Assembly (NCBI GenBank): GCA_036488875.1
Contig: DASXGW010000008.1
Location: forward strand, 1-64,000
DNA: 64,000 bases
Reading direction: 5' to 3'
Origin: Candidatus Baltobacteraceae bacterium
GTDB lineage: Bacteria > Vulcanimicrobiota > Vulcanimicrobiia > Vulcanimicrobiales > Vulcanimicrobiaceae
The notes beneath the pieces were generated by a model. That model was not told where the DNA came from, searched no databases, and saw only the letters and a program-made list of their open reading frames with translations. Positions 22,707-44,638 of this stretch are shown one piece after another. Position numbers and translations under genes: made by a program. Positions within the stretch are counted from its first letter, which is position 1. Each line of letters starts with the position of its first letter.

Positions 22707-23156
22707 TCAGTACACGCCGAGGTCGGCCATGAAATCGGCAACCTCGCCCCCCGAGACGCTCTCGACGTTGTAGCGTTCCGCGGCCCAAATCTCGATGCGC
22801 GTCATCATGCCGACCGAGACGACGTTGCGTTCGATGCCGGCATAGGCGCGCAGACTGGCGGGAATGACGACCCGGCCCTGGGTATCGCTTGTGACTTCCT
22901 CTGTATGGGCGAAGATGTAGCGCAAAAACCGCCGGTACTTGTCGCGGTCTTCCTTGCGCGGCGGCGCCTCGAGCCGGCGCGAGATTTCCACCCACGTCGC
23001 AAGCGGAAAAAGGGCGAGGCACGGGTCCGGGTGCCCGATGGTTAGGACGAAGCGTTCGCCCAGGCGGTCCCTGAAGCGCGCGGGCACGATGAGACGCCCC
23101 TTACCGTCGAGGGCGTGCTGCTCCGACCCAGCGAAACGCGGCAGATCCGCCTGCAC
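22707..23156 (-). CDS. mraZ: Transcriptional regulator MraZ
   Basis: A 149-residue protein with two tandem SpoVT/AbrB-like domains: HALDGKGRLIVPARFRDRL in the first and VTSDTQGRVVIPASLRAYAGI in the second. MraZ binds direct repeats upstream of its own gene and controls the dcw operon, in E. coli as a repressor. The matching repeats are visible at 23173-23198. The gene starts the operon here; GGAGG lies just upstream of the ATG. Confidence 0.96.
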   Translation of the reverse strand: MQADLPRFAGSEQHALDGKGRLIVPARFRDRLGERFVLTIGHPDPCLALFPLATWVEISRRLEAPPRKEDRDKYRRFLRYIFAHTEEVTSDTQGRVVIPASLRAYAGIERNVVSVGMMTRIEIWAAERYNVESVSGGEVADFMADLGVY

Positions 23157-23172
23157 CTAAGTCCTCCGGAGA

Positions 23173-23225
23173 CACCACTAAGCACTACTTTGCTCCACTA
23201 TACGCCCCAAGAAGGCGCGAGGCAA
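23173..23225 (-). promoter_or_regulatory. dcw promoter with triple MraZ box
   Basis: Read on the minus strand: TTGCCT at 23225-23220 (-35-like), a 17-base spacer, TATAGT at 23202-23197 (-10-like), then three hexamers GTGGAG (23198-23193), GTAGTG (23188-23183) and GTGGTG (23178-23173). The hexamers are separated by exactly four bases each, giving 10-base periodicity. The known MraZ site in other bacteria is direct repeats of GTGGG/AG with a 10-base period upstream of mraZ, so this is a strong operator match. It overlaps the -10 and the likely transcription start, which fits repression. The region 23229-23420 on the other side is the leader of the divergent lipoprotein gene; I see nothing else definable in it. 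Confidence 0.85.
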
Positions 23226-23420
23226 GTTTGACCGGTGGCGGGATCCAGCTTAATTACGGAAGTCCATCTAGCACGAACGCTTGTTCGATGACGTCTTTCC
23301 GCTCGCGTTATTGGAAGGCGAGCGCTTTGCACGAGCGCCTACGCCTGTCGGTTCTCCACGAATCGGCGAGAAATACGTCCGTGGGGAAATGCGAGAAGGA
23401 AACGAATCGTTGTATCTCCC

Positions 23421-25424
23421 ATGCGCAATTTAGCGCCCTTGCGTTGGCTAACGCTCCTCGCGCTATCGGCGATTGCCGCTTGCTCTGCGCGTACTTCCTC
23501 GTTTGGCGTATTGCCGAATGCGGTTCGGGTTTCGCGTGTAGAGCGTTCGGCGGCGGGATACAGTGGCGATCTTTTTGTTGCCAACGTAGGAAGAAATACC
23601 CAACGCGGCAGCGTCGCGGTTTTTGCGAACGGGGGTTCTAACCCCGTTCATCAGGTCGTGAACGGGATCGATAGACCGAGCGCAATCGCGTTCGAACTTT
23701 CCGGGGACCTCGTCGTTGCCAACTCGGCGCGAGACTCGCTAACCGTTTACGACGCGGCGACTCTCACGCTCGAGGACACGATCACGCAAGGTGTTTCGTC
23801 GCCGTCGGCGCTGGCGACGGATTTCATGGGGAACGTTTACGCCGGCAATCAGAACAGCGTGACCGTATACGCGCCGCACCAGAGCGCACCGATACGAACG
23901 ATTTCCGGAGTCGTCGCGCCGCGGCGGCTCGCGTTCGATCAATACGGCTCGCTATACGTCGTCCAAAACAGCACCATTGAGGTGTATGCGCCGGGAGCCG
24001 TGAAGCCGTTTCGTACGATTCGCAAGGGCCTCAACGATCCGCGTTGGACCGTATTCGCTTCGGATGGCAGTTTGGTCGTCGCTAATGCGGGCGGCACCAG
24101 TGGAAAAGGATCGATCGCGATATATCCGCCGTACGCCAACGTACCCAAGCTGCGTATTACCGCGGGAATCGACGTGCCGGTGCGCGTCGTCTTCGATTCG
24201 TCGGGAAACATGTACGTTGCCAACGACGGCGACGGAACCGGATCGGTCACGGTTTTCGCGAAGGGCGGCGTACGACCGCTCCGCACCATCAGGGCCGGTA
24301 TAAATCACCCAAGCGCGCTCGACTTTGCTTTCGGGCGTCTCTACGTAGCAAATGCTCCTTCGAGCGGTGCGGGATCGCTTGTGTCTTACGTAGTCGGGTC
24401 GTCGCAGCCCGCGCAAACGATTACCACCGGCGTCAACGTTCCGTCGACGATGCGCGCGCCGGGTAAAGCGGTTAAGCAGTATCTCTTTGTCTCAAACGTC
24501 GCGAAGAATTCGGTCACGATCTATCCGATTGGAACCGGTAACCTCGTGCGCACGATTTCCTCCCAGATCTCCAAACTGAATTCGATGTTGGTGGACGGAT
24601 GGGGAAATCTCGACGTGCTGGGAGCCGCAGGAGTGAGCGTCTACGCAGCGGGCGGCCTCACGCCTTTGACCGATCTTTCCGGCACGAACGACGTTTCCGC
24701 AATTGCGCTGGATTCGAACGGGTCGCTCTACGTTTCGCACGAGGGCGGCGGAACGGCGAACTATCCCGGATCCATCGGAATCTATCCGCCCGGTTCGACC
24801 AGTCCAGTGCGCACCATCGCGGGTTCGAGCACGTCGGAAATCCATATGCCGGTAGCGCTCGCAGTCGACGCTACCGGCAACCTTTACGTCGGAAACCTCG
24901 CCGACGGATTTCGTTCTTCTTCGGATTATCCAGGGAACTACGTAACGATGTTTACCCCCGGAAGCAGTACGCCGTCGAACGTCATTGGGGTGAACGCACC
25001 CGAGCGCCTCGCTGTCGACGGATCGGGAAATCTGTTTGTAGGCAGCGCTAAGTCGTATTTTACAAGCTACGGGCCGGCGACGATCTTCGAATATGCGCCC
25101 GGGAGCAGTAAGCTGTTGCGGCAGATCGCGCTTAGCGCGCCGACATCAGCGTTTGTGCTTGACGGCGCGGGAAATCTCTACGTTGCCAACGAGAGCACGA
25201 ACGCCGTCGACGTGTACGCGCCGGGCGCGACGACGCCGGGGCGATCCATCGTGCGGGGCGTCGGCGCACCGTCAGCCCTGCTATTCGATCCGGTGGGAAA
25301 TCTCTACGTAGCGAACTCCTCGTTAAACACGGTGACCATGTATGCACCGGGGTCGAGTACTCCGTCGTTGACGATTCACAGCGGAGTCGACGCGCCAAAC
25401 GCGCTCGCCTTGGGAGGTTCGTAG
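23421..25424 (+). CDS. NHL-type beta-propeller lipoprotein (large)
   Basis: A 667-residue lipoprotein: a basic N-terminus, a hydrophobic segment and a lipobox IAAC at Cys21. The body is a long series of roughly 40-45-residue repeats built on the pattern (L)YVAN---TVTVYAPG---P-RTI--G---P-ALAFD--GN, giving well over ten blades, enough for two propellers. Such NHL/SMP-30-like propellers usually bind ligands or proteins; no catalytic residues can be assigned. AAGGAA lies upstream of the ATG. Its stop TAG shares one base with the GTG of the next paralogue, so they form an operon. Confidence 0.85.
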   Translation: MRNLAPLRWLTLLALSAIAACSARTSSFGVLPNAVRVSRVERSAAGYSGDLFVANVGRNTQRGSVAVFANGGSNPVHQVVNGIDRPSAIAFELSGDLVVANSARDSLTVYDAATLTLEDTITQGVSSPSALATDFMGNVYAGNQNSVTVYAPHQSAPIRTISGVVAPRRLAFDQYGSLYVVQNSTIEVYAPGAVKPFRTIRKGLNDPRWTVFASDGSLVVANAGGTSGKGSIAIYPPYANVPKLRITAGIDVPVRVVFDSSGNMYVANDGDGTGSVTVFAKGGVRPLRTIRAGINHPSALDFAFGRLYVANAPSSGAGSLVSYVVGSSQPAQTITTGVNVPSTMRAPGKAVKQYLFVSNVAKNSVTIYPIGTGNLVRTISSQISKLNSMLVDGWGNLDVLGAAGVSVYAAGGLTPLTDLSGTNDVSAIALDSNGSLYVSHEGGGTANYPGSIGIYPPGSTSPVRTIAGSSTSEIHMPVALAVDATGNLYVGNLADGFRSSSDYPGNYVTMFTPGSSTPSNVIGVNAPERLAVDGSGNLFVGSAKSYFTSYGPATIFEYAPGSSKLLRQIALSAPTSAFVLDGAGNLYVANESTNAVDVYAPGATTPGRSIVRGVGAPSALLFDPVGNLYVANSSLNTVTMYAPGSSTPSLTIHSGVDAPNALALGGS

Positions 25425-26533
25425 TGCGTTTCGTCACTGCGGGCTGTCTCGCGCTCGTCATCGCCGGCTGCGGTGCGCGTTCGCAGCCGGCTCAGCCGTT
25501 GCCCGTTCCGGCTGCAGACGCAAAAAGTTCGGATGCGCAGTCGCTCTATCTCGAAAACTACGGCTCAAATAGGATTGAGGTATACGCACTTGGCGCGACG
25601 ACCGTAAAATACGAAATCGTTGGGCCGGCCGGATGTGCGTTTGTGGGACCGCTCGCGTTTACCGTGACCGGATGGCTCGTCGCAGAGTGTGGGCACGCGA
25701 TAATCGAGATACCGCCAGGCACGACAAAAGCGAAGAGAATCATCACGGACGGCGTGCCGCCCGACTTCGTGGCAATGAGCGTCGATGCGTCGGATAATCT
25801 CTATGTCGCGGGAGAGAACTACACATCAACCTTCACCGGCATCATCGAATATTCGCCTTGGAGCTCCGTACCGATCCGAACCATCGCCCTCGGGTTCAAC
25901 CCCTATTCACTTGTAACGGACGCCGGCGGAAGCATCTTCTTAGCGCATGAGCCTGGGGCGGCGGCCAAACAGCCCGGTATCGCGATCTACCCACCCGGAA
26001 CGTCCGTGACTCAGGTGCGCGAAGTTCCATTTCCTTTCCCACCAACGTCGATGACACGGGACGCTAAAGGCTCGGTCTACGTCGGCGGCTACACGGGCAC
26101 GTGGCCGACGCTGTCGGCCCAGATCGTCGCGTACGCTCCGGGGTTGACGACGAAACTGCGCACGATCGTCGGGCCGCCGAAATTGGGTCTGAGCGATCTT
26201 CGCGTCGATTCCGCCGGGCGGATGTATGCGCTCTACTTCGGCCGTCCCCAATACGTGCTTCACCACCCCGGAACGCCGGTGTACAACATCGACGTGTACG
26301 AAGCCGGCGCGACGAGACCGTCGCGCGTGATCCATGAAGGGTTGCAGAACCCCCGCATGATCGCAGTCGACGATCGCGGTTACATCTATGCTCTAAACAT
26401 CGGTCCGCACGAGAACCATCCGGCACGCTACGTGAATCCGTCGATTGCCGTCTACGCCCCCGGAGGTTCCGTGCCTGTGAGCACCATTACGGAAGGCGTA
26501 ACGTCGGCCACGGCTATAGCCGTCGGCCCGTAA
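25424..26533 (+). CDS. NHL-type beta-propeller lipoprotein
   Basis: A 369-residue paralogue of the preceding gene. Its lipobox is IAGC at Cys16, and its blades are more diverged (SLYLENYGSNRIEVYALGA, NLYVAGENY, SIAVYAPGG). GGGAGG sits just before the GTG start inside the end of the upstream gene. It ends 21 bases before the stop of a convergent paralogue. Likely an outer-membrane or periplasmic surface lipoprotein of unknown ligand. Confidence 0.8.
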   Translation: MRFVTAGCLALVIAGCGARSQPAQPLPVPAADAKSSDAQSLYLENYGSNRIEVYALGATTVKYEIVGPAGCAFVGPLAFTVTGWLVAECGHAIIEIPPGTTKAKRIITDGVPPDFVAMSVDASDNLYVAGENYTSTFTGIIEYSPWSSVPIRTIALGFNPYSLVTDAGGSIFLAHEPGAAAKQPGIAIYPPGTSVTQVREVPFPFPPTSMTRDAKGSVYVGGYTGTWPTLSAQIVAYAPGLTTKLRTIVGPPKLGLSDLRVDSAGRMYALYFGRPQYVLHHPGTPVYNIDVYEAGATRPSRVIHEGLQNPRMIAVDDRGYIYALNIGPHENHPARYVNPSIAVYAPGGSVPVSTITEGVTSATAIAVGP

Positions 26534-26554
26534 ACCCTCGGGGCACCGACGACG

Positions 26555-27544
26555 TTAGGGAGCGATGGCGAGGGCCACGGGCTGCCGGATCTGAGATGAG
26601 ATCGTCAGCATCGGCGTGGTTTTGCCGGGGCCGTAGACCGTGACGTTGCTGAACGCACCGTTGACGACGAACAGATTTCCCGTACCGTCGACCGCTAATG
26701 CGAGCGGGTTCCCGACGCCGCGCGAAATCGTTTGCGAAAGCGCCAGATTCTTCAGATTATAAACGGTTACGGTCGACTGCGTTTGAGTGACGCCCCAGTT
26801 CGCCACGTACAGCGTATTCTGGAAACGGGCGAGCGTGCTGGGGAAGTCGATGCCCGCGGTAATTTGCTTCGTAGGTGTCGTCGCGGTCGGCGCGTACACC
26901 GTTACGTTGGTGTTGTTGACGCAGTAGAGAATGTCGTTGCCGTCGACGGTGATGCCGAGGGGACCATTGTGCGTGTGCACCGTGCGGCCGGCGGTTATGC
27001 TGTGGGGTTCGAACACGAGGATCTCGTTGAGGCCGGGATTCCCGACGTACAGACGGTCGAGCCGATCGAAGGTGAGCGCGTGCGGATCGACGTGGACGAT
27101 CGTGAGCATCGGCGCAGTCTTGTTGGGCGCGTAGATCGTGACGGTGCCGTTGCCCTTGTTACCGACGTAGAGGTTGCCCTGTCGATCGAACGCCAGTGCT
27201 CGCGGCTGCGAGATCCCAGTTCTCATCGTCCGCAGCACGGTCGTGCTGTCGGCTTTAATGACGCTCACCGTCGAGTTGCCGCGATTGGCTACGTAGAGAT
27301 TGCGCTCTGCATCGACCGCCAATGCAGCGGGCGCGTTCAAGCCGGCGGCGATCCTTCGAAGCAGCTTACCGTTGGCAGCGTACACCGTGACCGCCGTATG
27401 ATTGGCGACGAAGATCTCTTCGGAAGAAGCGGCCGCGCGCGTAACGGGCGACGGATTCACCGGTGCCGGCATGCCGGCGCCCGAACAGCCCGCGAGCGCG
27501 AGCAGTGCGGCTTGGATGGCGGCGAGCGTGCGAAGCCGGTTCAC
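26555..27544 (-). CDS. NHL-type beta-propeller lipoprotein
   Basis: A 329-residue lipoprotein with lipobox LAGC (Cys20) followed by about six to seven blades such as NLYVANRGNSTVSVIKA, NLYVGNKGNGTVTIYAPN and LYVANWG. It is the second gene of a minus-strand pair: its GTG overlaps the stop of the upstream paralogue (GTGA at 27541-27544). Length suits a single propeller. Ligand unknown. Confidence 0.8.
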   Translation of the reverse strand: MNRLRTLAAIQAALLALAGCSGAGMPAPVNPSPVTRAAASSEEIFVANHTAVTVYAANGKLLRRIAAGLNAPAALAVDAERNLYVANRGNSTVSVIKADSTTVLRTMRTGISQPRALAFDRQGNLYVGNKGNGTVTIYAPNKTAPMLTIVHVDPHALTFDRLDRLYVGNPGLNEILVFEPHSITAGRTVHTHNGPLGITVDGNDILYCVNNTNVTVYAPTATTPTKQITAGIDFPSTLARFQNTLYVANWGVTQTQSTVTVYNLKNLALSQTISRGVGNPLALAVDGTGNLFVVNGAFSNVTVYGPGKTTPMLTISSQIRQPVALAIAP

Positions 27545-28581
27545 GGACCCAGCGCGAGCGCAACCGGCAGATCGATACCGGTGCGAATCTTGAGCTTCGG
27601 CGAAGCGGCGCCCGGCGCATAGACGGCGACCATCTTGCGATTGGCGACGTAAAGCGCGCCGGAGCCGTCGAAAAGCAGCGCCGTCGGGGCGGTTATTCCC
27701 GAGCTGATCGTGCGCAGCGGCTTCGACGCTCCAGGCGCGTACACGGTAACCGTACTCGCGACGTTATTTGCGACGTAGAGGTTGCCCGACGCATCGAGAC
27801 GCACGGCCACGGGGCCGCTTATACCGTTCTTGATCTCGCGCTGCGGTTTGGTCGCGCCGTTAGAGTAGACTGCGACGACGTTGAGATTCGTATCGGCAAC
27901 GTACAGAGTATCCTTTGCATCGAGCGCCAACGACTGCGGATCGCTGACACCGACGGCGATCTTCGCTACGATGCCGGTGCTCCCGTGAGCAAAGACCACG
28001 ACGCGCGAACCGACTCCGCCGTATGGTCCGGAACTGCGACCGACGTAAACGTCGTCGGCGGTATCGAACGCGACGGAGATCGGATAGAAGCTCTTGAGTG
28101 CGCGCAGCAGCGTGCTCGAGCCCGGGGCATACACGCCGACGCTGAAGTATCCGTTAGCGACGTAGAGATTGTCGGCCGAATCGACCGCAAGCGTACGCGG
28201 CACGCTTACTTTCTGCGTAATGGTGCGCGACGGCATCGTCGCTCCCGCCGGATACACGGGCACGCTGCCCTTACCGGCATCGTTAGCGACGTAGAGCGTT
28301 CCCGACGAATCGAACACCAGCGCCGACGGTCTAACTCCCACGATCTTTCGCAGAACCGAACCGCTGCCCGGCGCGTAGACCGTCACCGTCGAAGCGTTGG
28401 CCACGTAGAGATTGTTAAACGACGCGCTATGGCGAATTAAGGACGGGGCGGTCGCGCGCAGCGAGGGCATAGCTGGGAAGATCTGCTGCGCGGGCAAACC
28501 GGAACAGCCGGTCGCCGAAACGAGAGCCGCTGCTAAAAATGGATATCGACCCGTTCGCAAACGAAAAGCCGGCAGTCCCAT
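27541..28581 (-). CDS. NHL-type beta-propeller lipoprotein
   Basis: A 346-residue lipoprotein using the ATG at 28581 (a nine-residue longer form from 28608 is possible). The signal peptide ends in SATGC (Cys26), followed by regular blades NLYVANASTVTVYAPGSG, TLYVANDAGKGSVPVYPAG, NLYVANNVASTVTVYAPGA and ALYVANRKMVAVYAPGA. The blades are very similar to those of the other three propeller genes, implying recent duplication or gene conversion. First gene of the minus-strand pair. Confidence 0.8.
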   Translation of the reverse strand: MGLPAFRLRTGRYPFLAAALVSATGCSGLPAQQIFPAMPSLRATAPSLIRHSASFNNLYVANASTVTVYAPGSGSVLRKIVGVRPSALVFDSSGTLYVANDAGKGSVPVYPAGATMPSRTITQKVSVPRTLAVDSADNLYVANGYFSVGVYAPGSSTLLRALKSFYPISVAFDTADDVYVGRSSGPYGGVGSRVVVFAHGSTGIVAKIAVGVSDPQSLALDAKDTLYVADTNLNVVAVYSNGATKPQREIKNGISGPVAVRLDASGNLYVANNVASTVTVYAPGASKPLRTISSGITAPTALLFDGSGALYVANRKMVAVYAPGAASPKLKIRTGIDLPVALALGP

Positions 28582-28673
28582 GTCTACCGGCGTTTCGCAT
28601 TCGCGCAAACACTACTGCACGAACCGGTTCTAAAGTCCCAATCTATGCGTGACTTTTAATCGACGCCTAACCC

Positions 28674-29108
28674 TTACTTACCGCTGCCCGGCGATCCGCG
28701 TTCCGCCACGAAGTCGTAAAGATGTCCGCGGTAGTCAGCGGTTCCGGAAATCGTATCGTCGGCCGAGATCGTGCCCTGGAACGACATCGAGCCTCCGATC
28801 TGCAGCGCAACGTGACCGTCTTGACGGTCGATCGTTCCGGTCACCGCAACGATGCGGTCGTTGAGCGGATCGGGCATGGCCGACATTCCGGTATACGTAC
28901 CGTCGATGGAATCGTCGTGAATGTTGAGCCGCATCGATCCGAGATGTGGCATACCGGCAGGCCCGATAGCCGTCTGGAACGCGGCGACGTAAGCGAGGTT
29001 TGCACCCGATCCTCCGTACTGCGCTGCCGCCCAAGCGGGGGTCGTTACTCCGCCGAGCGCGGCAAACGCGAACGCGAGTGCGAAGGCGGGTGGAAGATTT
29101 CGTTTCAT
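28674..29108 (-). CDS. Secreted protein of unknown function
   Basis: A 144-residue protein with a clear signal peptide (basic MKRN, hydrophobic core, cleavage after AWA near residue 27). The mature part is beta-rich: RLNIHDDSIDGTYTGMS, IVAVTGTIDRQDGHVALQIG, FQGTISADDTISGTADYRG. The pattern suggests a small beta-sheet periplasmic protein, but I do not recognise a family. It is divergent from the winged-helix regulator at 29189. Confidence 0.65.
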   Translation of the reverse strand: MKRNLPPAFALAFAFAALGGVTTPAWAAAQYGGSGANLAYVAAFQTAIGPAGMPHLGSMRLNIHDDSIDGTYTGMSAMPDPLNDRIVAVTGTIDRQDGHVALQIGGSMSFQGTISADDTISGTADYRGHLYDFVAERGSPGSGK

Positions 29109-29133
29109 GACTCATATTATGATTCCGCCGCCT

Positions 29134-29151
29134 TTGACAACTCTGTGAGTT
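29134..29151 (+). promoter_or_regulatory. Candidate operator overlapping a -35-like hexamer
   Basis: TTGACA at 29134-29139 runs directly into a perfect 13-base palindrome AACTCTGTGAGTT (29139-29151, arms of five around TGT). It lies in the 80-base gap between the secreted protein gene and the winged-helix regulator, 38 bases before the regulator start. A good -10 at normal spacing is not evident, so the promoter assignment is weak. The palindrome is the right size for a dimeric winged-helix regulator. Confidence 0.4.
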
Positions 29152-29188
29152 CGGCGGCCGCAGGTGATTCGGACTATCGTCGACGCAT

Positions 29189-29587
29189 ATGTCGGCCTTG
29201 GAGCGTAAAGAGTTTTCCGCTGCATTTCGCGAGTTCGTTCGTCAAAACGTCGCCTCGGTAGAGCAAGTAGACGTCCTCTTGCTGCTGCAGAGCGATCTGG
29301 CGCGCTGCTGGACGATTGCCGAACTGAGCACGGCGCTGTCGAGTTCGCACACCTCGATCGCGCGCCGGCTCGCGATTTTGTGCGCGCGCGGGCTGGTAGT
29401 GCGCGAGGACTCGGGTCAATTCCGATACGTTTCCGACGTCGCGCACGATGTGCTGGTGAGCGAGCTTCGGGGCGAGTACGCGTCGCGCCCAACCAGCGTC
29501 ATCGGGCTCATTTACTCCAAGCGAACGTCCGCGCTCGAGAGCTTTTCGGACGCTTTCCTGTTAGGTGGTGACGACCGTGACCGCTAG
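29189..29587 (+). CDS. Winged-helix DNA-binding protein
   Basis: A 132-residue protein with a helix-turn-helix near residues 45-70 (CWTIAELSTALSSSHTSIARRLAILCARGLVVRE) and a short wing (DSGQFRYVS), as in MarR/GntR-like regulators, followed by an alpha-helical C-terminus. No ligand domain is obvious. It overlaps the first of two DUF5985-type membrane genes, suggesting a coupled regulator/membrane module. Confidence 0.7.
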   Translation: MSALERKEFSAAFREFVRQNVASVEQVDVLLLLQSDLARCWTIAELSTALSSSHTSIARRLAILCARGLVVREDSGQFRYVSDVAHDVLVSELRGEYASRPTSVIGLIYSKRTSALESFSDAFLLGGDDRDR

Positions 29588-29837
29588 CATCGTCTACATT
29601 CTTTGCATGCTCACAAGCGCCGCGTGCGCCGTGCTGCTCGCCCGCGCCTACGTTCGGTCGCGCGAACGCCTGCTGTTTTGGAGTTCGCTCTGCTTTGCCG
29701 GCTTGTGCGCCAACAATGCGATGCTTTTTATCGACGTCGTGCTGTTGCCTCAGGTCGATCTTTCCATCTGGCGTCTCGTGCCGGCGCTGCTGGGAATCGC
29801 CGCGCTCTGTTACGGTCTCATCATGGAGGCGGAGTAG
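29577..29837 (+). CDS. DUF5985 family membrane protein, first copy
   Basis: An 86-residue membrane protein with three hydrophobic helices (VYILCMLTSAACAVLLARAY, LLFWSSLCFAGLCANNAMLFIDVVLL, VPALLGIAALCYGLIME). I choose the GTG at 29577 because AGGTGG sits eight bases upstream; GTGs at 29565 and 29568 are in frame too. It begins inside the end of the regulator gene. DUF5985 proteins have no assigned function. Confidence 0.65.
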   Translation: MTASIVYILCMLTSAACAVLLARAYVRSRERLLFWSSLCFAGLCANNAMLFIDVVLLPQVDLSIWRLVPALLGIAALCYGLIMEAE

Positions 29838-29839
29838 TC

Positions 29840-30097
29840 GTGTACGGCCTCATATCCGGGGCGATCATGTTCGGCAGCTTTGTTGCCTCGTTGTTCTTCT
29901 ATCGCTTCTGGCGCCGGACGCTCGACCGTCTCTTCGTATGGTTCGCCGTCGCCTTCCTGATACTCGGCGTGGAACGCCTGGTGCTCGCGATCACGCACGC
30001 GAGCGAGATCTCGTCGCCCGCGATCTATATCATGCGCCTGATCGCGTTTGGCCTGATCATCGCGGCCATCGTCGACAAGAACCGCCAGCGACCCTAA
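29840..30097 (+). CDS. DUF5985 family membrane protein, second copy
   Basis: An 85-residue membrane protein starting at a GTG two bases after the previous stop. It has three hydrophobic segments, with FFYRFWRRTLDRLFVWFAVAFLILGVERLVLAI in the centre and VDKNRQRP at the end. It resembles its neighbour in size and helix layout, with FWRRTLDRLFVWFAVAFLILGVER corresponding to SRERLLFWSSLCFAGLCANN, so the pair probably arose by duplication and may hetero-oligomerise. Function unknown. Confidence 0.65.
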   Translation: MYGLISGAIMFGSFVASLFFYRFWRRTLDRLFVWFAVAFLILGVERLVLAITHASEISSPAIYIMRLIAFGLIIAAIVDKNRQRP

Positions 30098-30143
30098 ACC
30101 GAGGCCAACACTTCGCCGGCTCGAAGCCTCTATTACCGTGAAG

Positions 30144-30704
30144 ATGGCTGACCGACAAGAGATCGCTCCCGCCGCCATCGAGGCGGCGCGTGCCGGACGT
30201 CCGGGTGCCGCGGATCGTCTCGTCGCCGAGGCGTGGCCGCACGCCTATCGGATCGCCTATGGGCTGCTGCGCGACCGCGATCTCGCGCAGGACGCCGCAC
30301 AAGAGGCGTGTGCCGCGATCTTTACGCGGATCTCGCAGCTCCGTACGGCCGAAGCCTTTCGCGTTTGGCTCTATCGCATCGTCGTGCGCGAAGCGGCCCG
30401 GCTCGAACGCAAACGCGCGCTGTCCCACGTTTTGGGATTCGCTCCCGCGAGCGTCGACGACATCGCCGTCTCGACCCTGCGCGCAGATCTGCGATCCGCT
30501 CTCGGCAAACTCGCGCGACTGCAGCGGGCGGTCATCGTGCTTCGTTATTACGCCGGAATGAACAGCACCGAGATCGCCGCGGTGCTCGCGATTCCGGCCG
30601 GATCGGTGCGCTTTCATCTGGTCGAGGCGCGCCGCGCGCTCGAGCGGCTTCTCGACGAGCCGCGGTCGTCATCGCGCTTCTTGGAGGTGGCTCGTGTCGT
30701 TTGA
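30144..30704 (+). CDS. ECF-type RNA polymerase sigma factor
   Basis: A 186-residue sigma-70 family factor of the extracytoplasmic-function class. Region 2 spans about residues 20-90 (AYRIAYGLLRDRDLAQDAAQEACAAIFTRI, then FRVWLYRIVVREAARLER). Region 4 spans about 115-175 (LGKLARLQRAVIVLRYYAGMNSTEIAAVLAIPAGSVRFHLVEARRALE). A GTG at 30138 is an alternative start. It overlaps the next small membrane gene by 11 bases, the usual arrangement of a sigma factor with its anti-sigma partner. Confidence 0.88.
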   Translation: MADRQEIAPAAIEAARAGRPGAADRLVAEAWPHAYRIAYGLLRDRDLAQDAAQEACAAIFTRISQLRTAEAFRVWLYRIVVREAARLERKRALSHVLGFAPASVDDIAVSTLRADLRSALGKLARLQRAVIVLRYYAGMNSTEIAAVLAIPAGSVRFHLVEARRALERLLDEPRSSSRFLEVARVV

Positions 30705-30939
30705 TCTGCGTCTGGCGCTCGGCGAGACCTTCGACGTCCCGGTGCCGCCCGTACCGGTCGCCGCGATTCGCGTACGTTCCGCCGCCGCGGCCACGCGCGA
30801 GACGACGCGTTGGCGGATGCTCGTCGCCGCGATTGCCTTGACGTCGGCCTTTACCCTGACGCTTGCGTGCGAACGATACGCTCCGGCACACGCGCGCGCT
30901 CCCATCGTCTCGGCGACTCCGTCGCCTCTCGTCACCTAA
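30694..30939 (+). CDS. Small single-helix protein coupled to the sigma factor
   Basis: An 81-residue protein with a cytoplasmic-like N-terminal half, one hydrophobic segment near residues 43-59 (LVAAIALTSAFTLTLAC) and a short proline-rich end. GGAGGTGG precedes the GTG start inside the sigma-factor gene. Its position and topology suggest an anti-sigma or accessory role, but there is no zinc-finger (HxxxCxxC) motif, so this remains inference. Confidence 0.6.
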   Translation: MSFDLRLALGETFDVPVPPVPVAAIRVRSAAAATRETTRWRMLVAAIALTSAFTLTLACERYAPAHARAPIVSATPSPLVT

Positions 30940-30943
30940 CACC

Positions 30944-32455
30944 GTGCCTCCGTGGGTTCTCTTAGCCGGCATCGCGACGATCGCCGGGCTGGATCTCATT
31001 GCGCTCTCGGGCGGCGCGCTGACGATTCCGGCGCTCGTTGCGATCTTCGCGCTGCTCGTCGCCGGCATACATCGCCTGGAAAGCGCGCGCCTCCCACGCG
31101 TCGAGACGGCCGATTGGCCGGAGGAATCGACGCCAATGGTTTGGCCGCTCGATTACGCGATCGCCGGCGCGATCGGTGCCGGCAACTTCGCCTTGTCGTT
31201 TATCGGGTATTGGCGGCCCGACGGAGCCTCGTGCTGGACGCTCGGGCGGCTATCGCATTGCGGCATCTTTGACGAGCTCTACTTCGCGCGGGCCGGAGAA
31301 GAGTATCTGCTCAATCTCCGCATTTACGAGAACACGCATCCGCCGCTCTCCAAGCTGCTCGTCACGCTGTCGATGCTGCTCTTCGGCGGGATGCCCGGCG
31401 GCGACAACCCGCACGGCTGGCGTTTCCTCGACGTCGTCTTCGGCGCGCTGGCCGTGGTCGTGCTGTACGCATTTGCCAAGCGCGTTACCGGATCGACGCT
31501 CTTCGCTTCGATCGCGGCGATCCTGCTGTCACTCGACGGCATGCATTTCGTGCAGTCGCGCATCGCGACGCCCGAAGGCTTCGCCGTCGTCTTTGCGACG
31601 TTCGCGACCTATGCGTTCTACCGCTTCGTGATGGAGGTACAGGCCGGCGGTGCATCGCGACTGTGGCTGGTGCTCTTTTCGATCGCACTCGGTTGCCTCG
31701 TGAGCACCAAGTGGTACGGGGTCATGGGCTTCGGCGTAAGCTTCGTCGTTCTCGCCGGGCTCTATTTGCGCCGCCCGCATAGTTTTCGGCTCGCCCGTAC
31801 CCTTGCTGCCATCGTTTGCGTCAGCGCCGCCGTCTACACGTTTTCGTGGGTGCCGGATCTGGTCAGGAACTCGCCGGATCCCAATGAGATCCACAGCTTC
31901 GGCGACGTCCTTAACCGGCAGAAGCAGATGTTCGACTACCACGACACCTTGCGCGCCACGCATCCGTACTCGTCGAAATGGTGGGAATGGCCGCTCGACG
32001 ACGTTCCGGTCGCCTATTTCTACGACGACCGCCGCACGAACAAACAAGACCCTAACGGCTGCTGCGTACTCGAGATTACGTCGCTGCCGAATCCGGTCGT
32101 CCTCTGGTTTGGGCTGTTCTCGGTACCGTTCGTAGGGTGGCTAGCAATTGCTCGACGAAACATCGGCTGTTCCCTCATCGTGTTGACGTATCTCATGCAA
32201 TGGCTGCCGTGGATGGGATCGCCGCGCATTACGTTCGCCTATCATTTTTATGACGACATTCCATTGATTTGCTTGTGCAACGCGATCGCGCTGCAGAACG
32301 TGCGACGGCTTTCCGGCCTCGTTTCGGCGGCCTATGTCGCTCTGGCCGGCATCGCGTTCGTCTTTTTCTATCCCATCCTCTCGGCCCATGCGGTCACCTG
32401 GAACGCCTGGCACGCGCGCATGTGGCTTCCGACGTGGATTATCGGCCCCGGCTGA
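30944..32455 (+). CDS. Pmt-type dolichyl/polyprenyl-phosphate-mannose protein mannosyltransferase
   Basis: A roughly 503-residue multi-spanning glycosyltransferase of the PMT (GT39) fold. The first luminal loop has the acidic pair in CGIFDELYFARAGEEYL, followed by the family signature RIYENTHPPLSKLLV. The C-terminal part has WWEWPLDDVPVAYFY and SPRITFAYHFYDDIPL. Such enzymes transfer mannose from a polyprenyl phosphate to Ser/Thr of exported proteins. The GTG start lies four bases after the preceding stop, in an apparent operon with the sigma factor. The 3' end overlaps the convergent Ada-like gene by 17 bases. Confidence 0.82.
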   Translation: MPPWVLLAGIATIAGLDLIALSGGALTIPALVAIFALLVAGIHRLESARLPRVETADWPEESTPMVWPLDYAIAGAIGAGNFALSFIGYWRPDGASCWTLGRLSHCGIFDELYFARAGEEYLLNLRIYENTHPPLSKLLVTLSMLLFGGMPGGDNPHGWRFLDVVFGALAVVVLYAFAKRVTGSTLFASIAAILLSLDGMHFVQSRIATPEGFAVVFATFATYAFYRFVMEVQAGGASRLWLVLFSIALGCLVSTKWYGVMGFGVSFVVLAGLYLRRPHSFRLARTLAAIVCVSAAVYTFSWVPDLVRNSPDPNEIHSFGDVLNRQKQMFDYHDTLRATHPYSSKWWEWPLDDVPVAYFYDDRRTNKQDPNGCCVLEITSLPNPVVLWFGLFSVPFVGWLAIARRNIGCSLIVLTYLMQWLPWMGSPRITFAYHFYDDIPLICLCNAIALQNVRRLSGLVSAAYVALAGIAFVFFYPILSAHAVTWNAWHARMWLPTWIIGPG

Positions 32456-33308
32456 CGCTGTGCGCGCGCTCGCGATCGATGAGCGCGCGCTTGCGCTCTA
32501 AGCCCCAGCGATAGCCGCCGAGCTCGCCGGTACCGCGAATGACGCGATGACACGGAATCACCACCGCGACGGGATTGCTCGCGCACGCTCCGGCCACGGC
32601 GCGCGCGCCGTTGGGCGAACCGATCGCATCGGCAACCTCGGCGTACGATTGCACTTCGCCATACGGAATCGACTGCAGATATTTCCAGACGCGCATTTGA
32701 AATGCGGTCGCGCGAATGTCCAACGGCAAGTCGAGGTGCGGCTGATCGCCGGCGACGTGGCGCGCGATGGCTTGGACCCACTGCGCGAACGCGGGGTGCG
32801 GTGGCGTTTGCATCGGGGTGACGTCGGCGTTGCGATACTCCGCGCGCAGCCGTTCGATCAGCTCGTCTTCGGAGTCGCCGAACTGCACGAAGCAAATCCC
32901 GCGATCCGTCGCGCCGATCATCATGAGACCGGCCGGCGTCCGCAACGGCGCGTACGAGATAGCAACGCCTTCACCGGCCCGCCGGTACTGCGCCGGCGTC
33001 ATGCCCAACCGGGAGATCGCCTGCTCGTAGACGCGGCTCGCCGAACCGTAGCCCGCATCGTAGACTGCCGCGTCGACGGGTTTAGCTTGCGCCAAGCCCC
33101 GCTTGAGTTCGGCGAATCGTATCCCGGCGAGATATTGTTTGGGGGTGACGCCGACGACGGCTTTGAAGCTGCGGGCGAAGTGATAGCGGCTCATCGCAGC
33201 CATCGAGGCAAGCCGGTCGAGGGTGAGGGGTTCCTCGCTGTGGGTCTCGATGTACCGGCAAATTTTCCTGATCCGCTCAGGAACTGACGAGGGTGTCTGC
33301 TGTACCAT
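32439..33308 (-). CDS. AraC-type regulator fused to O6-methylguanine-DNA methyltransferase
   Basis: A 289-residue bifunctional protein. Residues about 10-110 form an AraC-type double helix-turn-helix (PLTLDRLASMAAMSRYHFARSFKAVVGVTPKQYL). Residues about 115-280 form an alkyltransferase with FQMRVWKYLQSIPYGEVQSYAEVA and the acceptor cysteine in NPVAVVIPCHRV (Cys253). Unlike Ada it lacks the N-terminal four-cysteine zinc domain that senses methylphosphotriesters. It repairs O6-alkylguanine and may regulate alkylation genes. I use the ATG at 33308; a TTG at 33332 is in frame. The gap 33309-33416 holds a GAAGAA/TTCTTC hairpin just before the next gene. Confidence 0.9.
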   Translation of the reverse strand: MVQQTPSSVPERIRKICRYIETHSEEPLTLDRLASMAAMSRYHFARSFKAVVGVTPKQYLAGIRFAELKRGLAQAKPVDAAVYDAGYGSASRVYEQAISRLGMTPAQYRRAGEGVAISYAPLRTPAGLMMIGATDRGICFVQFGDSEDELIERLRAEYRNADVTPMQTPPHPAFAQWVQAIARHVAGDQPHLDLPLDIRATAFQMRVWKYLQSIPYGEVQSYAEVADAIGSPNGARAVAGACASNPVAVVIPCHRVIRGTGELGGYRWGLERKRALIDRERAHSVSRGR

Positions 33309-33416
33309 GGGTATCACTCTAACGGCCGGCAAGCGGGCCAGCCATCCGAAAGTTGCCGCCGGTTGGGGTCGCCAGGCCCGACCGGGACGTTAGAAGAAAG
33401 CGTAACTTCTTCCCTT

Positions 33417-33890
33417 ATGAGGCGATTGCTCGGGATATTTGCCCTTTTGAGCCTGCTCTACGGCTGTAGCGGTGCGGGGTATCTCCCCTATGCGCCGCAC
33501 GCGCTCGATCCGTCCCAGATCCACGGTCTGGTCGCCGGCGCCTCTGAGTCCAACGGCGTTCCCGAGGGCCTGGTCCACGCCGTCCTGATGGCGGAATCGG
33601 CCGGGGATCCGTCGGCGGTGAGCACGGCCGGAGCGCAGGGGCTCATGCAGCTCATGCCCGGGACCTCTGCGGGGTGCGGCATCGCCAATCCGTTCGACCC
33701 GGTCGAGAACGTTCAGTGCGGCGCGGGATATCTGGGCGCCATGCTCCGCCGGTACCATAACAACGTCACGCTAGCGGTCGCCGCCTACAACGCCGGTCCT
33801 GGCGCGGTGGACCGTTACCACGGCGTTCCGCCGTACGCCGAAACTCGTGCGTACGTCACCCGCGTGTTGACGGCGTACCGAGACTACTAA
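33417..33890 (+). CDS. Lytic transglycosylase lipoprotein
   Basis: A 157-residue lipoprotein: signal peptide with lipobox LLYGC (Cys17), then a compact SLT domain. The catalytic glutamate is Glu60 in VLMAESAGDPSAVSTAGAQGLMQLMPGT, followed by VAAYNAGPGAVDRYHGVPPYAETRAYV. It cleaves glycan strands with 1,6-anhydroMurNAc formation. It is directly upstream of the LPS-transport genes, so envelope remodelling during outer-membrane assembly is a plausible context. Confidence 0.9.
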   Translation: MRRLLGIFALLSLLYGCSGAGYLPYAPHALDPSQIHGLVAGASESNGVPEGLVHAVLMAESAGDPSAVSTAGAQGLMQLMPGTSAGCGIANPFDPVENVQCGAGYLGAMLRRYHNNVTLAVAAYNAGPGAVDRYHGVPPYAETRAYVTRVLTAYRDY

Positions 33891-33903: not shown

Positions 33904-35058
33904 ATGGCGACGCTCACACACCGGCAGCCGCTTCCTCGCGTCCGCGCTGCTCTACCGCGCTTGCCCATTCTCGACGCCTATCTGCTGCGCGAAATGCTCG
34001 GCCCGTTTCTCTTTGCGTTTTCGGCGTTCTTGCTGTTCTGGGCGTTGAACATCTTCTTTCTCGCGGCCGACTACATCATCAACCAGCACGCGCCGTTCTT
34101 CCTCGTGCTGCGATTCGTCATCTTTCGCGTTCCGCAGGCCATTCCGATGGCGTTTCCGTTCGCGTGCTTGTTCGCCGCGCTGCTGGCGATGGGTCGTGTG
34201 ATGGGCGACAACGAGGTCACGGCGATGCGAACCGCGGGCATTTCGGTCGTGCGCATCGCGATCGCGCCACTGGTCTTCGGCTTTGTGATGTTTTTGATCG
34301 CCTACGGAATGAACGAGTGGATTGCGCCCGCTTCGGTGGATCTCTCGACGCGCACGTTCTATCAAATCATCTACCATACCGACGCGCTTCCCGTGGAGCC
34401 GCAGTTTTTCCGCAAGGATCAGGATACCGGCAACGTCTTCTACGTCACGCAGGTCGGTACCGACAACCGCACGATGGAAGACGTGCAGATTTTCAAGCCG
34501 GCGCGCTACGGCCCGTGGAACGAGACGCTGCAGGCGAAAACCGCGTCGGTCAGAGGGAACTCGCTAGTCCTGCACGACGTCATCGATACGCGTTACAACA
34601 ACGACGGCTATTTGACCAACCAACAGCGCGTCAAGGAAATCTCCATCGGTTTGCCGATGGGAGAGACGGTGTCGCAGTTCGTCAGCAACGTCAACAACGA
34701 TCCATGGACGATGAGCAGCAAGTCGCTGCGCCAGCAGGTCAACGCGCTCGAGACGCAGGGAATCGGCGGCACCGCGCTGGGCAACTTGCAGCTCAATCTC
34801 GCCGACAAGCTCGCGTGGCCGTTCGCCTGCTTCATCGGCGTCGTCTTGGCGCTCCCCTTAGCATTGCGTTTCGGCAAACGCGGCCGGACGCTCGGCATCG
34901 CGATGGCCATCATCGCGTTCTTCGTCTATTACCTCATGACGTCGGCGGCGGCGGCCTTCGGTCGCAACGGCGCGATCAACCCGTACCTCGCGGCCTGGTT
35001 GCCAAATGCCCTCATGGGAATCGTGGGTGTGACCTTGCTCAGGCTGGAAGAGCGCTGA
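33904..35058 (+). CDS. LptF/LptG-family LPS export permease
   Basis: A 384-residue YjgP/YjgQ-family protein: one N-terminal pair of membrane helices (residues 30-85), another pair near 100-140, a periplasmic beta-jellyroll domain in the middle, and two C-terminal helices near 300-370. LptF and LptG together with LptB drive LPS from the inner membrane to the periplasmic bridge. Only one permease gene is present, so its partner is elsewhere or it works as a homodimer. It is followed after four bases by the LptD-like gene. Confidence 0.88.
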   Translation: MATLTHRQPLPRVRAALPRLPILDAYLLREMLGPFLFAFSAFLLFWALNIFFLAADYIINQHAPFFLVLRFVIFRVPQAIPMAFPFACLFAALLAMGRVMGDNEVTAMRTAGISVVRIAIAPLVFGFVMFLIAYGMNEWIAPASVDLSTRTFYQIIYHTDALPVEPQFFRKDQDTGNVFYVTQVGTDNRTMEDVQIFKPARYGPWNETLQAKTASVRGNSLVLHDVIDTRYNNDGYLTNQQRVKEISIGLPMGETVSQFVSNVNNDPWTMSSKSLRQQVNALETQGIGGTALGNLQLNLADKLAWPFACFIGVVLALPLALRFGKRGRTLGIAMAIIAFFVYYLMTSAAAAFGRNGAINPYLAAWLPNALMGIVGVTLLRLEER

Positions 35059-43817: not shown

Positions 43818-44135
43818 CTAGTGCTTGCGCTCCTCGCCCCCACCCAGCTTTTTCTTCGCCTCGGCAATCAGCTTCTTGACCTTCTGACCGCCTTTGTGGC
43901 CGATCTCTTCGTAAAAGTCGGAGCCGTACTTTTCTTTGACGACTTTTCCGCCTTTTTGACCGATGGATTCGTAGAACTCGACGCCGTGCCGATCGCGTGT
44001 GGCCTTGCCACCTTTGCGTCCGATGTCCTCATAGAACGTCGAACCATACCGATCGCGTACGGTGTCGCCACCTTTTTTTCCGGCTTCGCGCACGGACATT
44101 TCACGCTTCGCTGCGTCGTCGTTCTTATCAGCCAT
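43818..44135 (-). CDS. KGG-repeat stress protein (con-10/GsiB-like)
   Basis: A 105-residue hydrophilic protein with a repeated roughly 20-residue unit of the form GGxxxRDRYGSxFYExIGxKGG, seen about four times (EAGKKGGDTVRDRYG, EDIGRKGGKATRDRHG, ESIGQKGGKVVKEKYG, EEIGHKGGQKVKKL). It ends in a lysine-rich tail. Such proteins are linked to desiccation and general stress (GsiB, Em-like) and are probably disordered. The end is six bases from the convergent lipoprotein stop. Confidence 0.85.
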   Translation of the reverse strand: MADKNDDAAKREMSVREAGKKGGDTVRDRYGSTFYEDIGRKGGKATRDRHGVEFYESIGQKGGKVVKEKYGSDFYEEIGHKGGQKVKKLIAEAKKKLGGGEERKH

Positions 44136-44186
44136 CAGTCCCTGTTACAGTTGCCGAAGTAGTCGGGTCGAGAGAAGTTGAGCGAT

Positions 44187-44405
44187 TTAGGTTGACGCCT
44201 TGCGTTTCGGGCGCTGACCGCCTTTTTGGCCGATGACTTCGTAAAACGACGGGCCGTACTTGCTCTTCGTCGCTTCACCGCCTTTGCGGCCGATTTCTTC
44301 ATAAAACTCGGAGCCGTATTTGGCTTTGACTCGTTCGCCGCCACGGCGTCCGGCTTCGCGAACGCTCATGCCGCCGCCGGCGGGTCCAGGGTCTTGCAGT
44401 GCCAT
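44187..44405 (-). CDS. KGG-repeat stress protein, second copy
   Basis: A 72-residue paralogue: MALQDPGPAGGGMSVREAGRRGGERVKAKYG, then EEIGRKGGEATKSKYG and EVIGQKGGQ, ending with basic residues. It has one repeat fewer than its neighbour. The ATG at 44405 is preferred because the frame upstream is not protein-like. The tandem arrangement suggests joint stress-controlled expression. Confidence 0.8.
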   Translation of the reverse strand: MALQDPGPAGGGMSVREAGRRGGERVKAKYGSEFYEEIGRKGGEATKSKYGPSFYEVIGQKGGQRPKRKAST

Positions 44406-44638
44406 AATAATGTGGACCTCGTATCTGCTGAAGGGGGGTGGGGTACGAGTGTTACTCTTTCCCATCCGAGCGCTTGGTAAACTCACGGGTTTCTCAGGAA
44501 CTGCTAGGTCCGCAGCTCCCCGGACACGGGAGGCCAAGTGATTCATTCCCAAGCGGCCTGCATATGACTCGCTCGGCGCCTCTGCAGGGATGAATTGACC
44601 AAAAGATTAGTCCGTAAGTCCGGGGAATCAACAGGCGC
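44406..44638. other. Intergenic region with no recognised gene
   Basis: These 233 bases separate the KGG genes (leftward) from the BsuPI-domain gene (rightward) and must hold both promoters. I see a G-rich run (GGGGGGTGGGG near 44430) and no tRNA, 4.5S, tmRNA or riboswitch signature. No coding frame looks convincing. Confidence 0.4.

Follow-up and report, generated by a model that had tools for sequence, protein, structure and literature searches.

Four neighbouring beta-propeller lipoprotein genes of a Candidatus Baltobacteraceae bacterium are old paralogues whose products are candidate extracytoplasmic binding proteins

Are neighbouring genes of one repeat family, laid out in mirror image, recent copies of one another, and what might their products do outside the cytoplasm? 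The question is raised by four genes for beta-propeller lipoproteins, here called A, B, C and D, at positions 23421-28581 of a 64,000-nucleotide stretch of DNA (the window), which covers positions 1 to 64,000 of the forward strand of contig DASXGW010000008.1 in assembly GCA_036488875.1 of a Candidatus Baltobacteraceae bacterium, a genome of 3.7 Mb in 15 contigs. An initial annotation, made from the sequence alone, had described two convergent pairs of lipobox proteins sharing a blade pattern, and had proposed that they arose by recent duplication and inversion, possibly with shuffling of blades, and that they provide ligand-binding or adhesive diversity. The cluster is real and was correctly described; its genes, however, are old, lineage-expanded paralogues and not recent duplicates.

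A and B lie on the forward strand and C and D on the reverse strand. A (23421..25424) encodes 667 residues, B (25424..26533) 369 residues from a GTG start, C (26555..27544) 329 residues, likewise from GTG, and D (27541..28581) 346 residues when read from the ATG at 28581, with an alternative TTG start 27 nt upstream, at 28608. Within each pair the stop and start codons overlap, by 1 nt between A and B (TAGTG, 25422-25426, the TAG stop of A running into the GTG of B) and by 4 nt between D and C (GTGA, 27544-27541, D stop and C start), and the 3' ends of B and C are 21 nt apart (26534..26554), so that the two pairs converge. No terminator-like site was found in this 21-nt gap; such sites numbered five against 6.0 expected. 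A promoter scan returned four sites, where shuffled sequence would give 1.0 (standard deviation, sd, 1.1); one of the four is in the gap between A and the neighbouring gene mraZ, on the strand of mraZ. Rfam and tRNA scans of the window gave no matches. Read by eye, all four sequences begin with a signal peptide and a lipobox ending in cysteine, as bacterial lipoproteins do: IAAC in A (Cys21), IAGC in B (Cys16), LAGC in C (Cys20) and ATGC in D (Cys26, counted from the ATG).

The blade unit is about 42 residues long and follows the pattern LYVAN/VTVYAPG. A repeat parse gives seven blades each for B, where they are divergent, for C and for D, and 14 for A; what had been noted as about twice as many is thus exactly two sets of seven, with A1-A7 in a first propeller (residues 50-347, 23568..24461; blade parse and modelled strands) and A8-A14 in a second (residues 348-667, 24462..25421; blade parse and AlphaFold model). 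A hidden Markov model (HMM) of the blade scores A to D at E values of 1e-65 to 1e-190, a circular result, as the model was made from these same 35 blades. Independent models confirm the repeat type unevenly: against the NHL repeat (PF01436, gathering cut-off 20 bits) C and D score above the cut-off (44.0 and 42.5 bits), A falls just below it (19.8 bits) and B has no match at E <= 0.1, while Pfam Lactonase reaches 28-45 bits in A and C, above its cut-off but over parts of the proteins only, and the YVTN repeat model 43 bits in C. Such models match B least well of the four, SBBP alone exceeding its cut-off, and only just (20.6 against 20.5 bits). ScyD/ScyE (NF033206) is the top NCBIfam match of A, B, C and D, at 69.9, 32.5, 48.7 and 41.5 bits; all four lie below the curated 80-bit cut-off. 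Apart from propeller domains, Pfam has no match above cut-off in any of the four, kinases included. The PADLOC defence models gave no full-length match, PD-T4-6 alone being matched, in part, by A, C and D (27-34 bits), and an anti-phage role was rejected on that ground.

The initial annotation had allowed that the blades might resemble one another less than they resemble unrelated NHL proteins. In phmmer comparisons run at a common database size, scores among A, C and D are 131-309 bits, and their best scores against the Protein Data Bank (PDB) are 60 (A), 103 (C) and 84 (D) bits, in each case for the designed propeller Pizza7H, so for these three that is not so. For B the outcome is mixed: its matches to the other three give 36-93 bits and none to the PDB reaches E <= 0.1, but A, C and D each match Pizza7H better than they match B (60 v 55, 103 v 34 and 84 v 73 bits). 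B is, on its sequence, a very diverged member of the family.

The age of the cluster was examined with five propellers, A being split into A-N and A-C. Their pairwise identity in alignment is 25-39%, and their silent sites (fourfold third positions under the same amino acid) agree at the background set by codon usage in 10 of 10 pairs (z -1.45 to 1.27). Two putative orthologue pairs shared with the genus mate served as controls, of which one stood above background (z 3.14) and the other did not (z -0.59); because of the latter, the test excludes recent events only, and not those older than saturation. Reverse-complement matches between the pairs extend over at most 43 nt (at 79%) and direct repeats over at most 54 nt (at 67-72%), and a search for tandem DNA repeats in the cluster found none. 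For every one of the five propellers the best-scoring partner lies outside the cluster, elsewhere in the same genome for A-N, A-C, B and D, and at locus L066 for C.

A tree was built from 59 propeller rows and 301 columns, in which A and a 647-residue protein of genome G013 were each split in two, and from which an 833-residue G005 protein and, in genomes other than the present one (G000) and its genus mate (G001), proteins with fewer than six detected blades were excluded; 28 of its 56 inner branches are unresolved and bootstrapping had not converged. The four cluster proteins do not form one clade in it: B groups with two genes, one on contig C4 and the other in genome G012 (support 95/88), and the second half of A joins D (97/78). 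That last grouping, together with the clustering, the mirror-image layout and the common family, is what a recent local duplication with inversion and blade shuffling would lead one to expect, and in an approximately unbiased (AU) test the five propellers held as one clade gave p 0.555, the held tree being 2.3 log units better. An origin of that kind is nonetheless very improbable in our judgement, given that the propellers are no more than 25-39% identical and agree at silent sites no better than background, that each has its best partner elsewhere, that B keeps company with genes on another contig and in another genome, and that DNA repeats are short and imperfect; the recent expansion proposed at first is accordingly rejected. 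The AU test leaves room for an ancient common local origin, which is neither demonstrated nor excluded. The same holds on a smaller scale for A, whose halves are about 34% identical with silent sites at z 0.68, so that a recent internal duplication was rejected, and for which a tree test does not reject the two halves as sisters (p 0.226).

The best match of 19 of the 35 blades is D6, A13 or A14, and blades score on average 41.3 against others of their own propeller, 41.5 against those at equivalent positions and 37.4 against all; blade similarity tracks closeness to the family consensus, and not protein or position. A median internal blade identity above 60% is given as the mark of recent amplification in the portion of Pereira and Lupas (2022; PMC9218822) used here, where highly repetitive propellers, of the same fold and likewise built by blade amplification, are treated. 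The present propellers differ from these in lying below that mark, at 0.37 for A-N, 0.38 for A-C, 0.30 for B, 0.35 for C and 0.44 for D (per shorter blade). There are no near-identical blades and no tandem DNA repeats, and recent shuffling of blades finds no support. In a test of positional register over 33 propellers with exactly seven or 14 detected blades, the window's own propellers show weak register (z 0.35-1.63, with shift 0 best in four of ten pairs), compared with 4.8-4.9 for two putative orthologue pairs; over all 528 pairs shift 0 was best in 146, where about 75 would be expected. These sequence comparisons make a shared seven-blade ancestor likely for the whole family, but it cannot be shown pair by pair.

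The family reaches well beyond the cluster. At a family-profile threshold of E <= 1e-20 this genome holds 20 genes at 15 loci, four of them in the cluster, and at the same level 30 of 41 genomes have matches, from 0 to 51 each (matches, not genes), with genomes of one taxonomic family covering that entire range. Overlapping neighbours on the same strand recur elsewhere, at C8:280412/281491 in this genome, as three genes at G001:C152 and as a pair at G014:C46. The nearest named match is to a Candidatus Eremiobacterota bacterium (40% identity over 35-355). Two putative orthologue pairs with the genus mate (L051/L103 and L050/L107) are 41% and 68% identical, as against 83-85% for RsmH and MraZ, so the family seems, at the level of sequence, to diverge fast. 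Other members show further variants: the 647-residue protein in G013 (L159:3557-5500) has 11-13 detected blades, its second half much nearer the consensus than its first, and the 833-residue protein in G005 (L160:2099-4600) has 10 detected blades, more than one propeller's worth. The most symmetric of the 33 measured propellers, at 0.52, is encoded in G018 (L158:1944-2984), and L140 and L152 in G020 form a close paralogue group; both are possibly more recent amplifications. In open-licence literature on the phylum combined with propeller, lipoprotein or NHL, none of the titles listed concerns these proteins, and a full-text search of one paper on the phylum (PMC9758169) found propeller, NHL and lipoprotein unmentioned.

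What do the proteins look like? An AlphaFold2 model of D, made on an alignment of 37 family proteins, has a mean predicted local distance difference test (pLDDT) of 89.4 and a predicted template modelling score (pTM) of 0.83, and shows low confidence up to about residue 50 followed by 28 strands, with block pLDDT mostly 95-99. Since the last strand, 341-345, takes the position of a blade's innermost strand, the order of strands in the model indicates that the ring is probably closed by the C-terminus of the protein. D is thus modelled as a closed seven-bladed propeller, and for B and C the seven blades are read from sequence alone; with the lipoboxes and the repeat-model matches, this bears out the description of the proteins as lipoprotein beta-propellers. 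For A, modelled from 12 sequences of which just two cover its first half, strands for two propellers were obtained (pLDDT 76.5, pTM 0.57) with a low-confidence stretch at residues 336-352 between them, and many of its Foldseek matches are multi-propeller proteins, at low TM-score; two propellers in tandem are the modelled, less certain, arrangement. The closest fold to D is 1l0q, an archaeal surface-layer YVTN propeller (Z 34.5, 2.0 A over 280 residues, 21% identity), and other near folds are lactonase-type propellers and BtuG1/BtuG2, lipoproteins of the surface of Bacteroides (Z 29.4-30.0, 15-17% identity). The fold itself is ordinary, and because many unrelated seven-bladed propellers score as high as BtuG, it gives no function when taken alone.

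A further feature is where the family varies. Loop lengths were measured from strand to strand over up to 231 blades of the 33 propellers, loops missing an anchor column being dropped. Residues beyond the commonest length amount to 606 in the B-C loops (219 loops, sd 3.8), 50 in D-A (195 loops, sd 1.1), 26 in C-D (221 loops, sd 0.5) and 2 in A-B (164 loops, sd 0.2); for the window's own propellers the corresponding figures, in the same order, are 84, 6, 1 and 0. In a propeller the B-C and D-A loops lie on the same face, so that 656 of the 684 extra residues fall on one face. A fixed frame with one variable face suggests binding scaffolds of differing targets, and the ligand-binding diversity put forward by the initial annotation becomes more plausible as a candidate role.

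Conserved residues point to the frame. Over the 37 aligned proteins no column of His, Glu, Lys, Trp or Cys reaches 40%, the lipobox cysteine excepted, and Asp (0.76-0.92), Asn and, at about half, Arg recur from blade to blade in what look like framework positions. This bears on whether the proteins could be enzymes of lactonase or virginiamycin-B-lyase type, as the above-cut-off Lactonase matches of A and C, the lactonase-type propellers among the nearest folds and a match of C to Vgb_lyase (18.3 bits, far below the 50-bit cut-off) might lead one to think. Such activity would be most surprising, given that no blade-specific conserved His, Glu, Lys or Cys appears over the 37 proteins or the 231 blades, that the conserved Asp recurs across blades, and that the Lactonase matches cover parts of the proteins only.

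The nearest fold raises another possibility. Archaeal YVTN surface-layer propellers are thought to be structural or adhesive, and A to D resemble the YVTN/NHL propellers, 1l0q included, in blade motif, four strands per blade, seven blades and export, as well as in best Z score and Foldseek match. They could have a structural or adhesive role at the surface, as S-layer-like or matrix-binding tiles, with their number and variety serving to build a coat, and the many paralogues and the tandem double propeller of A would suit that role. They differ from 1l0q, however, in being lipid-anchored, in identity (21%), in that only C and D pass the NHL cut-off, and in the PKD domain that 1l0q has and that was absent from the six family members scanned with Pfam; moreover, a unit that repeats in a lattice would not be expected to carry long and varied loops on one face, and a coat might be more constant than 0-51 matches within one taxonomic family. 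We regard a coat as unlikely, if worth keeping in mind.

A part in extracytoplasmic sensing or protein assembly, in the manner of the PknD sensor or of BamB-type proteins, would instead have the propellers bind cellular proteins. The extracellular domain of PknD (1rwi, E 9.7e-20) is among the nearest sequences and folds for D, and together with the designed Pizza propellers it gives sequence matches down to 1e-22 for D and 1e-28 for C. PknD is a kinase, however, and its propeller and the Pizza propellers are six-bladed except for Pizza7H; B has no PDB match, and A to D have none but propeller domains above cut-off. Regulators of LuxR and BTAD type flank one family locus (L046), and a sigma-70-family gene and a MarR-like gene below cut-off lie in the same genomic block as the cluster, but the number of family members varies widely between genomes, and sensing or assembly appears to us quite doubtful.

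The reading that we favour, with confidence that is evenly balanced, is that A to D are extracytoplasmic binding proteins, one ligand to each, working in a BtuG-like way within an old, scattered and diverged family. Each protein would be exported by Sec and lipidated at its lipobox cysteine, and a flexible linker would tie the lipid anchor to a rigid seven-bladed disc, or in A to two discs in tandem; for D, linker and disc are suggested by the lipobox and low-confidence stretch that precede the high-confidence propeller. All discs would share a common frame, with specificity in the loops of one face, mainly B-C and to a lesser extent D-A, and the other face fixed in length. Translational coupling would make the proteins in fixed pairs. 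Excerpts of the paper on a cultured member of the phylum (PMC9758169) describe an outer membrane covered in lipopolysaccharide (LPS), so that such lipoproteins could be displayed on the outside, where each would bind its own ligand as capture lipoproteins of the BtuG type do. The analysis shows the sequences, the blade counts, the predicted fold, the lipoboxes, the size of the family, the loop variation on one face and the variability of the site; we infer outer-membrane location, surface exposure, ligand binding and pairing, and likewise the steps from display to capture.

BtuG, which acts in vitamin B12 uptake in Bacteroides, is according to the sections of PMC10404256 drawn on here a propeller lipoprotein with seven blades, which binds cobalamin and caps the TonB receptor encoded with it. 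The likeness to A to D lies in the lipoprotein, the linker and the seven-bladed propeller; the difference is that no receptor gene lies beside the cluster. A BtuG-like layout was found at another locus of the same genome, L046:4606-11174 (G000:C8:276605-283173), where a TonB-dependent receptor gene is followed after 48 nt by two overlapping propeller lipoprotein genes, the second of which encodes a long extra N-terminal region before its propeller.

Several observations weigh against the capture reading. The window contains no TonB-receptor plug match, the only one of the contig lying some 250 kb away. In this genome, with the 15 family loci taken as rounded midpoints, receptors were near 3 of 15 at distances of 6, 8 and 10 kb, where 0.9-1.5 would be expected, and near 2 of 15 at 5 kb, where the expectation is 0.8; P is 0.06-0.19, and no significant association is seen. 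With no receptor near the cluster and no significant enrichment near family genes, the capture mechanism is an inference from the features above. No ligand site was identified in the proteins, and rules for outer-membrane sorting in the phylum were not found. Finally, variation in B-C loop length is common in propellers at large, and here it could be neutral drift on an unconstrained face.

The genomic setting of the cluster is itself variable. It is cargo in a gap (23157..33362) between mraZ, the first gene of the division (dcw) cluster (22707..23156, reverse strand; Pfam MraZ 1.2e-29), and the operon of an SLT transglycosylase-domain protein (33363..33890, forward strand; Pfam SLT 1.1e-25, with synteny) and an LptF/LptG permease (33904..35058, forward strand; Pfam 1.4e-73). 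Measured from tblastn ends, this gap is 10.2 kb here as against about 0.1 kb in G018 and 0.2 kb in G005, where mraZ and the operon are nearly adjacent, and 2.1, 2.5, 7.7 and 8.1 kb in G010, G075, G043 and G020; within the bacterial family it thus varies from about 0.1 to 10 kb, with cargo differing from genome to genome (window; L111, L114-L117, L119). That cargo includes a TonB receptor and other genes in G020, a sucrose-phosphate-type glycosyltransferase in G043 and an Ada-like protein in G075 that is shared with the window, and in the genus mate a LuxR-type gene adjoins mraZ. The blade HMM had matches at 0 of 12 mraZ loci of relatives, of which L101, L113 and L118 cover just 3.0, 0.4 and 0.9 kb past mraZ and L110, L112 and L120 do not extend to the SLT-LptFG side. 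G+C content differs little, at 60.7% in the propeller block, 64.4% to its left and 62.7% to its right.

The gap also holds a short protein O-mannosyltransferase-type gene of 530 residues (30863-32455), the second copy in this genome. As a glycosylation partner of the propellers it was set aside as uninformative, since genes of this type occur in 41 of 41 genomes whatever the number of propellers, in 37 of the 41 as one match, usually in a frame of about 1000-1200 residues. Elsewhere in the window, several relatives give multiple overlapping, offset DNA matches at about 43845-44485, which suggests an internally repeated coding stretch.

For the interpretation of such loci, the cluster corrects a likely over-reading, in that mirror-image neighbouring paralogues of a repeat family need not be recent duplicates. 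The B-C and D-A loops offer a testable idea of where specificity lies, and the receptor-linked locus at C8:276605-283173 is a starting point for work on partners. More broadly, exported propellers emerge as an abundant family in a phylum of which few members have been cultured. We think it unlikely, though worth considering, that some Eremiobacterota possess a lineage-specific recognition repertoire, in which as many as dozens of lipid-anchored discs would combine an invariant frame with a single hypervariable face of loops, turn over between genomes and be housed in part at a hotspot that separates the division cluster from the LPS-export operon; if true, it would serve the capture of many environmental nutrients or the recognition of other cells.

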